Assembly (NCBI RefSeq): GCF_025398255.1
Contig: NZ_JAODNW010000004.1
Location: forward strand, 1 to 64,000
Direction: 5' to 3'
DNA length: 64,000 bases
DNA from: Chelativorans intermedius
GTDB taxonomy: Bacteria; Pseudomonadota; Alphaproteobacteria; Rhizobiales; Rhizobiaceae
Numbering within the stretch: position 1 is the stretch's first letter; each line of letters opens with the position of its first letter. Below are positions 3,886 through 55,733 of this stretch, piece after piece. The notes below the pieces were generated by a model. That model saw only the letters and a list, made by a program, of their open reading frames with translations, had not been told where the DNA came from and made no database searches. Both the position numbers and the translations under genes were made by a program.

Positions 3886-5318
3886 AACGAACCCGCAAGG
3901 TCAAGATTCTCGCCACCCTGGGGCCGGCCTCCTCCGAGGAGGAGATGATCGCCAAGCTCTACCAGGCGGGCGCGGACGTGTTCCGAATCAACATGAGCCA
4001 CACCGACCACGCCTCGATGCGCACCCTGGTGGAGCGCATCCGCGAGGTGGAAAAGCGTGTCGGCCGGCCCATCGGCATTCTCGCCGACCTGCAGGGGCCG
4101 AAGCTGCGCGTCGGCACCTTCGCGCAGAAAAGCGTGCGCCTGAAGGTGGGCCAGCAATTCATCCTCGACGACAATGCCGCGCCGGGCGACGAGACGCGCG
4201 TGCACCTGCCCCACCCGGAGATCCTGAAGGCGGTCGAGCCGGGCCACCGGCTGCTGATCGACGACGGCCGGCTGCAGCTCGAAGCGGTGAAGACCGACGG
4301 GCACGCCATCGTCTGCAAGGTGGTGGCCGGCACCGTCATTTCCGACCGCAAGGGGGTGAGCCTGCCCGACACCGACCTTCCGCTCGGCGCGCTGACCGGC
4401 AAGGACCGCAAGGATCTCGAGGCCGTTCTCGCCACCGGCGTGGACTGGATCGCGCTGTCCTTCATCCAGCGTCCCGAGGACCTGGCCGAGGTGCGCAAGG
4501 TGGTGCGCGGGCGCGCCTGGCTGATGGCCAAGATCGAGAAGCCGCAGGCGGTGAGGCGCCTGCCGGAGATCATCGAGCTTGCCGATGCGCTGATGGTGGC
4601 GCGCGGCGATCTGGGCGTCGAGATGCCGCTGGAGGCGGTGCCCGGCATCCAGAAGCAGATTACGCGGGCCTGCCGGCGCGCCGGCAAGCCCGTGGTGGTG
4701 GCCACGCAGATGCTCGAATCGATGATCTCGGCGCCGGTGCCGACCCGCGCCGAGGTCTCCGACGTGGCGACCGCCGTGTTCGAGGGCGCCGACGCGGTCA
4801 TGCTTTCGGCCGAATCGGCGGCCGGCAGCTATCCGGTCGAGGCGGTGGCGACGATGAACGCCATCGCCGACCGCGTGGAACGCGACCCCACCTATGGCGG
4901 GGTGATCAACGCCCAGCGCAGCGAGCCGGAGGCGACGGGGGCTGATGCCATCTCGCTTGCCGCGCGGCAGATCGCCGAGACGCTGAAGCTGTCGGCCATC
5001 ATTACCTACACCGCTTCCGGCACCACCGGCCTGCGCGCGGCGCGCGAGCGCCCGCACGTGCCCATCATCGCCCTTTCCCCGGTGGTGGAGACGGCGCGGC
5101 GGTTGAGCCTGGTGTGGGGCACCCATTGCGTGGTTTCCGACGACGCGACGGACCTCGACGACATGGTGGACCGCGCCTGCCGCATCGCCTATGAGGAGCG
5201 CTTCGCAAAGCCCGGCGACCGGGTGATCATCACCGCCGGCGTGCCGCTGCGCACGCCCGGCTCCACCAACATGCTGCGCATTGCCTATATCGGCTCGGAC
5301 GGGCTGGGCGGGCTTTAG
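3882..5318 (+). CDS. pyk: Pyruvate kinase
   Basis: Pyruvate kinase converts phosphoenolpyruvate and ADP to pyruvate and ATP, the last step of glycolysis. The 478-residue protein begins KVKILATLGPASS and carries the substrate and metal motifs FRINMSHTDH, the core MAKIEKPQAVRRLPEI with the catalytic lysine, and VARGDLGVEMPLEAV, with ATQMLESM and TRAEVSDVATAVFEGADAVM in the barrel and a C-terminal allosteric domain. The length is typical of type II bacterial enzymes. The ATG overlaps the DUF1036 stop codon. Its own stop codon TAG (5316-5318) is formed by the first three bases of a 105-bp intergenic repeat, so the protein ends exactly where the repeat starts. Confidence 0.97.
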   Translation: MKRTRKVKILATLGPASSEEEMIAKLYQAGADVFRINMSHTDHASMRTLVERIREVEKRVGRPIGILADLQGPKLRVGTFAQKSVRLKVGQQFILDDNAAPGDETRVHLPHPEILKAVEPGHRLLIDDGRLQLEAVKTDGHAIVCKVVAGTVISDRKGVSLPDTDLPLGALTGKDRKDLEAVLATGVDWIALSFIQRPEDLAEVRKVVRGRAWLMAKIEKPQAVRRLPEIIELADALMVARGDLGVEMPLEAVPGIQKQITRACRRAGKPVVVATQMLESMISAPVPTRAEVSDVATAVFEGADAVMLSAESAAGSYPVEAVATMNAIADRVERDPTYGGVINAQRSEPEATGADAISLAARQIAETLKLSAIITYTASGTTGLRAARERPHVPIIALSPVVETARRLSLVWGTHCVVSDDATDLDDMVDRACRIAYEERFAKPGDRVIITAGVPLRTPGSTNMLRIAYIGSDGLGGL

Positions 5319-5420
5319 ACCGGTTCATCGTTTCAATGAAACGCTGATCCGGTCCATCTATTTGTTTTTGCGGCATTTGTGCGACGCCAGATGATTCCAT
5401 CTGGTTGCAAAATGCTGTAG
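5316..5420 (+). repeat. 105-bp two-palindrome intergenic repeat, copy A
   Basis: Copy A of a 105-bp family that recurs at 39642-39746 (inverted) and 55629-55733. It holds an imperfect 37-bp palindrome (5318-5354, centred on cgtttcaatgaaacg) and a second one, ccagatgattccatctgg, at 5387-5404. By my alignment it differs from copy B at 7 positions and from copy C at 9. It lies between convergent genes (pyk and the TPR gene), and its first three bases are the pyk stop codon. Size and two-palindrome layout recall the rhizobial RIME elements; identity with them is not verified. Confidence 0.9.
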
Positions 5421-11510: not shown

Positions 11511-13712
11511 TCAGTTCACCGCGTCGAGCGGGCCGAGCCGCATGAAGACGGTCTCGCCCGACGAATCGTCCACACCGTCATTGTCGGTGACGAAATAGGC
11601 CTCGCCCGCCGCGTCGACGGCAAAGCCCTCGATCTTGTCGACCACATAGCCGTTGGTGGCGGTGCGCATGTCCTCGATCAGGTCGCGCACCAGCACCTTC
11701 TCGACGATCGGCAGCGCGCCGTCCAGCGGGGCGGGGCTGAACCCGTCGAGCGCCACGCCATAGAGGCGCTTGATGCGGGCGGCGGTGCCGATCTGGTTGT
11801 CGCGCTCGACGATGTAGAGCGTGCCGTCGTGGGCGGTGATCTCGGAAAGGCCCACCCAGCCCGTCTCCGCCTCGTCCAGGCGATAGCGGACGGCCGACCA
11901 CTCGCCGGTGGCGGGCTTGTAGGCGACGAGCTTCACCTGCCCTTCCGGATCGTCCTTCCAGGGGCGTTGCATGGCCATGACCAGCATGCGCTCCTCCCCA
12001 TCGCCCACGCGCGTGATGCCCTCCATGCCGAAGCGGATCTCGTGGGCGAGAAGCTCCGGCGGCAGGGCGATCTCCTGGGTGATCTCGCCGTCGGCATCAA
12101 CATGCAGGAGGGCATGTGGGACGAGCCGGTCCGTGCGGCCCTCGGAGGCCAGCCAGAAACCGCCCTCGCCATCGGCGACGATGCCTTCGAGGTCCAGCTT
12201 CTGGGCGGGCTGGCCGCCGCGTCTGACCACGATCTTGCGGCTGATCCGCGCCGGCGCCGTGCGTGCGTCGATGACGAAGATGGCCGGCTCGGCACCGTAG
12301 AAGGAATCGGAGACGGCATAGAGGCGGCCCGGCTGCGCGGGATCGGCGGCCAGGCCGGAAAGGGCGCCCCAGCCGATGGGCCGGCCGTTCTCCATGACGG
12401 AGCGGATCGTCGGATAGGCGGGCGCGTCTTCCGACAGCGCGTAGATCATCACATGCGAGCGGGCGCCGCCGTCCTCCACCATGTCCTCCTCGTTGGCGGT
12501 CACCAGCAGGTTGCGCCCGGGGATGGCCAGCACGCCTTCCGGGCCGACGCCGGAGGGCAGCACCTGCACGAATTCCGGGTCGGCGCCGGTGTCGCGATAC
12601 ACACCCACCAGCGAGGCACGCTCCAGCGCCACGAAGAGGTAGGACGCGTCGCCATAGGCGGCCGCCTCCAGGCCCTCCGGCTCGGCGCCCTTGGCATCGG
12701 AGCGCTTGTCGGGATAGTGGCCGGCAAGGGCCGCCTGATGTTCGAGCCGGGCGCCCGAATCGTAGAGAACGTCGCCGCCTTTCGAGAAGATGGTGAAGCT
12801 GCGCGCCCCGCCCTCGTAGTCGCCCTCGTTGGCGACCACCAGGCGCTCATCATCCAGCCACTTCACGGCGTCGGGCTCGCGCCGCAGATCCCCGGCCGCC
12901 TGGTCGAAGCGCAGCGCCCCGTCGTCCAGAAGGTCGACATTCTCGACGCTGCCGGCGCCGGCGGAAAAGTGGCCGGTCACTTCGCCGGTCTCGGCGGAGA
13001 CGATGACGACATGGTTGTTTTCCTGCAGGGTGACGGCAATCTCTCCGGCGGCGTTGAAGTCCACGAACTCGGGCTCGGGGTCTTCCGGGGCCACCTCCGC
13101 CAGGCCCGTCAGGTCCACGGTCCTGGCGCTGTCGCAATCGGGAACGCCGGCGGCGAGCGCGAAAATCTGCAGCGTGCCGGCCGGCATCTGCGGCAGCGCG
13201 CCATCGTTCAGGTCCTCGTCGCGCTCGTTCTCGATGGCAACGGCCAGGAAACGGCCGTCCCTGCTGACGGCCACCGAGTCGGGCTGGCCGGCAAGCGCGC
13301 AGGAGGGCTCGCCCGTCCTGTCCGCGATGTCGAGGAGAACAAGCCTTCCCGAGGGCTCCGTGTAGCTTTCGGAGGTGTTGACGGCGGCGATTGCCTTCGC
13401 GCCGGCGACCGCCACCGAGGTCGGCTCGCCTTCCACCTCGATCAGCCCGCCGGCGCGGGGCGCGCGCGGATCGGCGATGTCGACGAAGCCGATGGCCCCC
13501 AGCGGGCTGTCGGAATAGATGAGCGTGTTGCCGTCCTCGCTGGCGGCGATGATCTCCGCGGAGGTCACGCTCTGCGCATCGGTGCCGGCGGGCAGATTCT
13601 CTGCCACCGGAAAGGTGGCGATGCGGTTGAAGGCCATGTCGGCAAGCGCCGGCATGGCGGTGGCCGTCGAAAGCGCTGCGGCAAGCGCGCCCAGAAGCCG
13701 GTATCGAGCCAT
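11511..13712 (-). CDS. Secreted protein with phytase-like esterase domain
   Basis: A 733-residue exported protein. A signal peptide (ALAAALSTATAMPALA) covers residues 1-24. The first half, to about residue 410, has the repeated blades of a beta-propeller (SVAVAGAKAIAAVN, SVAVSRDGRFLAVAIENE, KWLDDERLVVANEGDYEGGA). The second half, from about residue 440, matches the esterase-like activity of phytase domain: LSGLAADPAQPGRLYAVSDS, KLDLEGIVADGEGGFWLASE, EGITRVGDGEERMLVMAMQR and KIEGFAVDAAGEAYFVTDND. Acidic loops suggest calcium binding. Such proteins may release phosphate from organic esters in the periplasm, but activity is not shown by sequence alone. The last domain ends in DNDGVDDSSGETVFMRLG. 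Confidence 0.8.
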   Translation of the reverse strand: MARYRLLGALAAALSTATAMPALADMAFNRIATFPVAENLPAGTDAQSVTSAEIIAASEDGNTLIYSDSPLGAIGFVDIADPRAPRAGGLIEVEGEPTSVAVAGAKAIAAVNTSESYTEPSGRLVLLDIADRTGEPSCALAGQPDSVAVSRDGRFLAVAIENERDEDLNDGALPQMPAGTLQIFALAAGVPDCDSARTVDLTGLAEVAPEDPEPEFVDFNAAGEIAVTLQENNHVVIVSAETGEVTGHFSAGAGSVENVDLLDDGALRFDQAAGDLRREPDAVKWLDDERLVVANEGDYEGGARSFTIFSKGGDVLYDSGARLEHQAALAGHYPDKRSDAKGAEPEGLEAAAYGDASYLFVALERASLVGVYRDTGADPEFVQVLPSGVGPEGVLAIPGRNLLVTANEEDMVEDGGARSHVMIYALSEDAPAYPTIRSVMENGRPIGWGALSGLAADPAQPGRLYAVSDSFYGAEPAIFVIDARTAPARISRKIVVRRGGQPAQKLDLEGIVADGEGGFWLASEGRTDRLVPHALLHVDADGEITQEIALPPELLAHEIRFGMEGITRVGDGEERMLVMAMQRPWKDDPEGQVKLVAYKPATGEWSAVRYRLDEAETGWVGLSEITAHDGTLYIVERDNQIGTAARIKRLYGVALDGFSPAPLDGALPIVEKVLVRDLIEDMRTATNGYVVDKIEGFAVDAAGEAYFVTDNDGVDDSSGETVFMRLGPLDAVN

Positions 13713-38985: not shown

Positions 38986-39645
38986 ATGGTGATGAACAAC
39001 AGGCAAACGATAAAGAACGAGCGGGCGGAGGATCCGAGGCGGGCGCGCATCGTCGAGGCGGCGATGCCGGTCTTCCTGGCCTATGGCTTTTCGCGCACGA
39101 CGATGGACGACATCGCGCGGGCGGCGGAGATGTCGCGTCCGGCGCTCTATCTGTTCTTCCGCAACAAGGCCGACATCTTCCGCGCCGCCTGCATGGCCAC
39201 GCTGGAGCACGCGCGCGCAAGCGCCTGCGACGTGCTGGAGGGAGAAGGGCCGCTGGAGGCGCGGCTGATGCAGGCGCTCGACCAGGCGCTTTTCCGGCTC
39301 TTCCGGCAGATCGAGGATTCGCCGCATGGCGAGGAGCTGGTGGATGTCAACCACGCCATCGCCTCGGACGTGGTGGCGGCCTGGGTGCGCGAAATGGTGG
39401 CCTGCTTCGCCACGGCCATCGACAGGGAGGCGCGCCAGCGCGGCGTGCGGCTCGCGCGGCACGGCCTTTCCGCCGAGGCGCTGGCGGAAATGCTGTTAGA
39501 CGTGCTGGAGGGGTTGAAGTCGCGCGGCGTGTGCGGCACCGCCGCCGAAGCGCGCGCCGGCCAGTTCGTCACCCTCATCGGCATTGCGCTGCGGGCGCAG
39601 CCGCCGTCGGAGGCCCCGCCCGCAGAGGCCGGCGCGCCGTGCTAA
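38986..39645 (+). CDS. TetR family transcriptional regulator
   Basis: A 219-residue repressor. The N-terminal helix-turn-helix reads RRARIVEAAMPVFLAYGFSR, TTMDDIARAAEMSRPALYLF and FRNKADIFRAACMATLEH, and the remainder is an alpha-helical ligand domain. The start could be the ATG at 38986 or 38992; both fit. A 25-bp dyad lies just upstream. It is divergent from the RND efflux genes, which is the usual layout for a pump repressor. Its TAA stop (39643-39645) is formed by the edge of repeat copy B, whose boundary is at 39642, so the protein ends EAGAPC where the repeat begins. Confidence 0.88.
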   Translation: MVMNNRQTIKNERAEDPRRARIVEAAMPVFLAYGFSRTTMDDIARAAEMSRPALYLFFRNKADIFRAACMATLEHARASACDVLEGEGPLEARLMQALDQALFRLFRQIEDSPHGEELVDVNHAIASDVVAAWVREMVACFATAIDREARQRGVRLARHGLSAEALAEMLLDVLEGLKSRGVCGTAAEARAGQFVTLIGIALRAQPPSEAPPAEAGAPC

Positions 39646-39746
39646 AGCATTTTGCAGCCGGATGGAATCATCTGGCGTCGCACAAATACGGCAAAAACAA
39701 AGAGATGGACCGGATCAGCGTTTCAATGAAACGATGAACCGGTCTA
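39642..39746 (-). repeat. 105-bp two-palindrome intergenic repeat, copy B
   Basis: Inverted copy of the 105-bp family found at 5316 and 55629. It fills the whole space between the convergent tetR and bdhA genes. Its left edge (cta aag) supplies the TAA stop of tetR; its right edge supplies the TAG stop of bdhA on the other strand. It carries both internal palindromes; relative to copy A the central base of the first palindrome (cgtttcaatgaaacg) is changed. Both gene ends have therefore been set by the element, or the element inserted precisely next to existing stops. Confidence 0.9.
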
Positions 39747-55628: not shown

Positions 55629-55733
55629 CAGACCGGTTGATCGTTTCATTGAAACGCTGATCCGGTCCATCTATTTGTTTTTGCCGCATTTGTGCGACGC
55701 CAGATGATTCCATCTGGCTGCAAGATGCCCTAA
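55629..55733 (+). repeat. 105-bp two-palindrome intergenic repeat, copy C
   Basis: Third copy of the family, in the same orientation as copy A, between rpmF (with its terminator) and the convergent phaR gene. Its right edge (gccctaa) supplies the TAG stop of phaR on the minus strand (55730-55732). Its left edge does not touch a gene; rpmF ends 205 bp earlier. The first palindrome is centred on cgtttcattgaaacg and the second is intact. Confidence 0.9.

Follow-up and report, generated by a model that had tools for sequence, protein, structure and literature searches.

The 64,000-nt window (the whole stretch of DNA that was analysed; G+C content 67.5%) harbors three copies of a non-coding repeat (body about 100 bp) that folds as two hairpins with a T-rich linker between them and whose edges coincide with the stop codons of four genes, the names of which agree with the family searches (pyruvate kinase for pyk, TetR_N for tetR, 3-hydroxybutyrate dehydrogenase for bdhA and PhaR for phaR). 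Copy A occupies 5316..5419 on the forward strand, the flanking TA dinucleotides at 5316-5317 and 5418-5419 included (body 5318-5417, 100 bp); copy B lies at 39643..39746 on the reverse strand, likewise with the TA on both sides included (body 39645-39744), and both of its edges are stop codons; copy C spans 55629..55732 on the forward strand and has a TA at its 3' edge (55731-55732), its 5' edge reading CAG, without a TA. According to RNA folding, hairpin 1 of copy A (5318..5354, forward strand; GACCGG...CCGGTC) includes the third base of the stop codon, hairpin 2 (5369..5419, forward strand) is preceded by the T-rich linker, and the whole element of copy A folds with a z of −8.0, the values for four element folds ranging from about −5.0 to −8.0. 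The pyk stop (TAG, 5316..5318, forward strand) is made up of the TA of the target and the first base of the element, the tetR stop (TAA, 39643..39645, forward strand) of TA and the outermost base at the 3' end of the element, and the bdhA stop (TAG, 39744..39746, reverse strand) of TA and the base with which the element begins at its 5' end; in copy C, the 3' edge doubles as the phaR stop (TAG, 55730..55732, reverse strand). Within the element, the alignment of the three copies is gap-free, and the TA of every stop sits at an identical register, so that the initial annotation, which had placed these four stops at fixed positions of the repeat edges, is borne out by both the sequence and the ORF calls, as is its count of four stops among the six edges in the window with copy B supplying two of them; the two edges without a stop are the 3' edge of copy A (GTAG, reading TAC inwards) and the 5' edge of copy C (CAG). 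Searches with the repeat retrieved nothing from Rfam at gathering scores and no match from a phage collection.

The host assembly (4.18 Mb in 101 contigs) holds at least 55 copies by the hairpin-1 pattern, these 55 being the ones fetched and analysed, and at least 73 loci by a covariance model at E below 1e-9 (deletion variants included; 150 of the 1751 candidates scored). With genes called by a home-made codon-usage caller trained on the host genome, the 5' TAG coincided exactly with the stop of the gene that reads into the copy at 24 of the 55 listed copies (TAG in all 24), the 3' edge was an exact stop at 11 (TAG 7, TAA 3, TGA 1), and at least one edge was an exact stop at 33 (60%), the respective numbers for the covariance set of 73 being 31, 14 and 42. 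When the distances between edges and gene ends are considered, the offset is exactly zero for 24 of the 41 copies whose 5' edge has the 3' end of a gene nearby (no farther than 160 bp on the outside or 40 bp on the inside), and for 11 of the 43 having a nearby gene 3' end at the 3' edge, while the non-zero offsets are scattered. The coincidence of stops and edges is, hence, genuine and genome-wide, and chance, which the initial annotation had considered unlikely, is excluded. No called gene spans an entire copy among the 55 listed; at one locus (L008) a called gene overlaps the copy by about 30 bp, and at another (L086) one edge stop is TGA, and hence not TA-based. The 300-bp flanks of the 55 copies share a single pair of similar stretches, 34 bp long, and the copies thus look like independent insertions.

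A TA is present at both edges of 34 of the 55 listed copies, and the predicted empty sites of these 34 read CTAG in 22 cases, TTAG in 7, CTAA in 4 and GTAG in 1, which makes 33 of 34 conform to YTAR. All 34 of the TAA/TAG edge stops follow a C or T, as compared to 30 of the 101 background stops of this type within 400 kb (L185-L204; p about 1e-18), and many copies reside at YTAG sites which are no stops; judging by the pyrimidine that precedes every one of these edge stops, the element recognises TA within YTAR (mostly CTAG) rather than stop codons as such. Of the two options given in the initial annotation, replacement of the native stop or targeting of stop codons, the latter thus came nearer to the truth, but what is targeted is a sequence. 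Overall stop usage in the same 400 kb is TGA 257, TAG 81 and TAA 20, with TAG well above TAA. Among the 3' edges, those with a pyrimidine before the TA (YTA) are stops in 10 of 13 cases and those ending in GTA in 0 of 27, a zero that is forced by the genetic code, because the inward reading TAC can encode no stop. At the L013 locus, where the three closest genomes show TAG followed by 6 nt and CTAC, the host has TAG[element]TAG followed by 6 nt and CTAC, an arrangement that would fit a duplicated TA or TAG. A seemingly faster decay of the TA at non-stop edges (10/15 versus 24/68, p 0.026) vanished once the comparison was restricted to stop-capable edges, among which the difference is not significant (10/15 versus 24/41, p 0.41).

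The reading that we favor, and hold to be quite probable, is that a MITE-like two-hairpin element inserts at the TA of YTAR and re-forms the stop codon with its own end base, the protein being left unchanged; it starts from the position and register of the copies, the TA on both sides and the YTAR rule, all directly seen, to which the mostly conserved C-termini and the recurrence of the same pattern in relatives are added below. The element would be a small non-coding mobile repeat, one of a modular-repeat family of Hyphomicrobiales, whose insertion at the TA of YTAR (mostly CTAG) would leave a TA on either side, and, wherever that TA happens to open a TAA or TAG stop, the gene would retain its TA and receive the third base of the stop from the element. 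The 5' end of the element begins with G and would yield TAG; the 3' end, read inwards, has G or A first in one subfamily and would yield TAG or TAA, and in the common subfamily, where the 3' end reads TAC inwards, the 5' edge alone could serve as a stop. With the stop re-formed at the same codon, the protein would stay as it was, and a single CTAG common to two convergent genes would provide both of them with a stop, as presumably happened at copy B. We infer the act of transposition itself, a candidate transposase moving the element in trans, and selection, insertions inside genes or at promoters having probably been lost; as YTAR is scarce in the G+C-rich host genome, and many of the tolerable sites are stops, the surviving copies would then pile up on stop codons.

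How much of the excess such a target choice explains can be gauged from the background sites, counted with element-like stretches masked first: CTAG coincides with stops at 15 sites, with coding sequence at 9 and with intergenic sequence at 27, and CTAA/TTAG at 7, 17 and 64, respectively. Random non-coding YTAR insertion, weighted to the elements' own sites, predicts a stop share of 27% versus the observed 60% (p 3e-7), and confining the insertion to the 150 bp after gene ends raises the expectation to 48% (p 0.046), which means that target choice by itself falls short of what is observed in either case. As 54 of the 55 listed copies have a gene 3' end no more than 320 bp away and 36 lie between convergent ends, the YTAR target and retention near gene ends explain most of the stop excess, leaving a modest remainder. 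This remainder, the crowding near gene 3' ends and the stable folds are also what one would expect if the host simply kept the element after stops, its hairpin and T-rich stretch acting as a terminator or 3' stabiliser independently of any target choice, an explanation that we nevertheless deem rather unlikely, as it accounts for neither the exact register of zero nor the pyrimidine rule, and a terminator scan gave nothing at copy B.

Insertion at the TA of YTAR may also be viewed against the relatives of the repeat. A BLAST search with the repeat matched 11 of 41 genomes, the host being one of them and all 11 belonging to the 16 genomes of the genus, and 20 related loci fetched from genomes G004, G005, G009 and G011 show an edge stop in 10 instances (four at the 5' and six at the 3' edge). 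The related copies of G004 and G005 end in TAGAGC...GCTCTA in 11 of 15 cases, a short terminal inverted repeat that is not preserved in the window's copies. In G001, G003 and G004, a sister repeat has hairpin 1 and the linker in common with the window repeat and differs in the distal hairpin (read by eye), and the two together display a mosaic build of exchangeable palindromic modules; among 30 of its loci (drawn from 100 hits to its pattern across four genomes, a few being chance hits), the TAGAGC edge provides a stop in 14 and the far edge in six more. Any base may precede the TAG stop of the sister repeat in these three genomes, so the preference for a pyrimidine is not common to it. The junction of tetR and bdhA carries a repeat on a stop in four genomes, on both genes in the host, on bdhA in G003 and G004, and on tetR in G001. 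Outside these assemblies, the window repeat is found in 11 plasmid records (Sinorhizobium, Nitratireductor and Rhizobium) and the sister repeat in 458, mostly of Rhizobium and Sinorhizobium. Four of the 11 were fetched, and in the two that carry NCBI annotation (Nitratireductor kimnyeongensis and S. meliloti) a stop forms the edge in both; for the sister repeat, of which 16 records were fetched, chosen from 60 among the 458 for coverage and organism variety (four being without annotation at the place in question), a stop lies at the edge in 6 of the 12 annotated places, two of these being one locus in related species. One S. meliloti plasmid record (L489, pB 161672-164742) presents three adjacent CDSs annotated as tail fibre proteins, one of which ends exactly on the 3' edge of a related repeat.

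Y1 (HUH) enzymes cut beside a short tag, YTAG or GTAG for instance, and duplicate no target sequence. A REP-type transposase of this kind, for which the 5' TAG would be the native target and the 3' GTAG an internal part of the element, has the hairpins at both ends and the TAG termini in its favor, along with the published statement that REPs tagged with GTAG frequently supply TAG stops from their termini (PMC3733652), yet it appears improbable, as the L013 copy has TA(G) on both sides with the spacing unchanged, stops at native positions are also met at the 3' edge (phaR and the closest L087 orthologs), the G004 and G005 copies bear a terminal inverted repeat, and the unit measures about 100 bp rather than 20-40. 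As far as the accessible text of that paper goes, GTAG-tagged REPs are hairpins of 20-40 bp with GTAG at one end whose termini often supply the TAG stop to flanking ORFs, and the window repeat resembles them in being palindromic, mostly intergenic and close to gene 3' ends (PMC3733652). It differs from them in that it comprises two hairpins over about 100 bp, has a TA to either side and provides stops at its 5' as well as its 3' edges, which sets it apart from a GTAG-tagged hairpin of 20-40 bp. That REP termini supply TAG stops is, in any case, already published, the statement in PMC3733652 being the one of its kind retrieved among open-licence papers on repeats that supply stop codons.

The favored reading, a stop re-formed at the same codon, predicts that orthologs should keep that codon, and this was looked at in as many as 15 further genomes of the genus, the stop position being taken from translated alignments and identical results being merged (which may have joined different genomes): 15 loci gave 12 distinct results for pyk, 9 gave 8 for bdhA, 15 gave 15 for phaR, 28 gave 14 for the L013 gene, 22 gave 13 for the L087 gene and 12 gave 12 for tetR, L021 being left out as too diverged. 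The closest orthologs at copy sites share about 72-90% of their DNA sequence with the host and belong to other species. The same stop codon is used by Pyk in 11 of the 12 distinct results (the remaining one is a codon longer), by BdhA in 8 of 8, by PhaR in 14 of 15 (the remaining one is a codon shorter) and by the L013 gene in 14 of 14; the L087 gene shares it in 6 of 13, among them the three closest, with five ending one codon earlier and two later. The TetR stop position differs in 12 of 12 orthologs, none of which shares the codon, although some of these alignments ran through a stop, which makes the individual differences unreliable; read by eye, the TetR tail of the host exceeds that of the three closest genomes (G001, G003 and G007) by 12-14 residues, none of them encoded by the element. 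As the bases beside the two TAs at this site join to TGC TAG CGG, the simplest reading would be that the tetR stop was already at the same place before the insertion. A related copy in G004 (L211/L381, C1:3700331-3700412) is located at the site orthologous to L021, where its gene ends GKF-stop versus GKFx-stop elsewhere, and may have trimmed one residue of that gene.

Since the orthologs mostly share the stop codon, trimming or extension of proteins by the element is no general rule, and the suggestion of the initial annotation that adjacent proteins might be trimmed or extended by a few residues finds no support at pyk, bdhA, phaR and L013, the exceptions being the L087 gene, tetR and possibly the one residue in G004. 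The same annotation had named two findings that would together speak against its reading, namely, orthologs keeping the same stop and distances from copies to stops spread at random, of which the former was largely encountered and the latter was not, given the offsets of zero at both edges. That the element would insert anywhere near gene 3' ends, its built-in terminal TAG replacing the native stop and thereby trimming or extending a few residues, is very improbable, for the shorter gene end in G004, the longer host TetR tail and the L087 gene with its same end codon in just 6 of 13 orthologs are outweighed by the shared codons of pyk, bdhA, phaR, L013 and the three closest L087 orthologs, and by YTAR being already there in the predicted empty sites of 33 of 34 copies.

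Returning to an element inserting at the TA of YTAR, several traits of a MITE are present: the repeat is short, non-coding and numerous (about 100 bp; at least 55 copies by pattern and at least 73 by the covariance model), and a target-site duplication is seen in the TA at both edges of 34 of the 55 listed copies and in the L013 spacing compared with three empty sites, the duplicated unit being either TA or TAG. A partner transposase with element-like ends was not found among 14 of the 19 PF13340 (IS5-type) hits in five genomes; three PF13340 hits do have TA-flanked inverted repeats, but of a sequence other than that of the element. A PF13340 transposase fragment in G005 (L383, C23:171592-171991) has a copy of the element about 140 bp away, and was considered as its partner and dropped, as no structural link between the two was found. 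The target rule itself has a precedent in IS711 of Brucella, an 842-bp IS that carries ORFs as well as inverted repeats of 20 bp and that, in the accessible parts of the sources, is described as duplicating TA at YTAR target sites (PMC2266754, PMC3163539), which is the rule inferred here; unlike IS711, the window repeat is short and devoid of ORFs, and no such IS partner was found for it among the PF13340 hits examined. Similar in size and in their palindromes, and likened here by description only, are Bru-RS1 and Bru-RS2 of Brucella (103 and 106 bp), given as putative IS711 insertion sites, with no edge stop codons mentioned in the portions of these papers that were available (PMC10800456, PMC3163539). 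The 107-bp non-autonomous RUP of pneumococcus resembles the window repeat in size and in its TA-containing targets and differs in having a proposed partner, IS630-Spn1, the available portion of its description mentioning no stop-codon register (PMC2229807).

The Rhizobium-specific intergenic mosaic elements (RIME), which the accessible descriptions present as intergenic mosaic repeats of rhizobia, are brought to mind by the sister repeat of rhizobial plasmids, in which one hairpin module is common with the window repeat and the other is swapped, although this likeness, too, is by description only. RIME1 is about 108 bp long and has two palindromes. It is tempting, if still speculative and somewhat doubtful, to think of stop codons as a general “safe harbor” for the whole class of Hyphomicrobiales mosaic repeats: the ends would be kept such that TA and the end base make a stop, different repeats would reuse the same stops (in four genomes at tetR/bdhA, for example), and every insertion would silently supply a 3' hairpin that alters termination or the decay of the mRNA while the protein remains untouched. 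Be that as it may, the single-base precision with which palindromic repeats may sit at gene ends would need no stop-seeking machine, a TA target and a purine end being enough; for annotation, the warning is that many gene stops in these bacteria are common to a gene and a repeat, and the rewiring of 3' ends by mobile repeats becomes testable in rhizobia.

Lastly, some of the host copies depart from the usual structure at their 3' side. In L008, L065 and L073, the 3' tail is longer or altered (TGTCTTATGACTCTAG-like), reaching about 5-12 bp past the usual edge, and the gene stop (TAG or TAA) is found at the outer TA in each of them. In L202 (around 12129-12543) and in the 3' flank of L022, the element is succeeded by an extra palindromic module (TAGTGGTGCGATCCC...), and in L202 the gene stop lies at the outer edge of that module.
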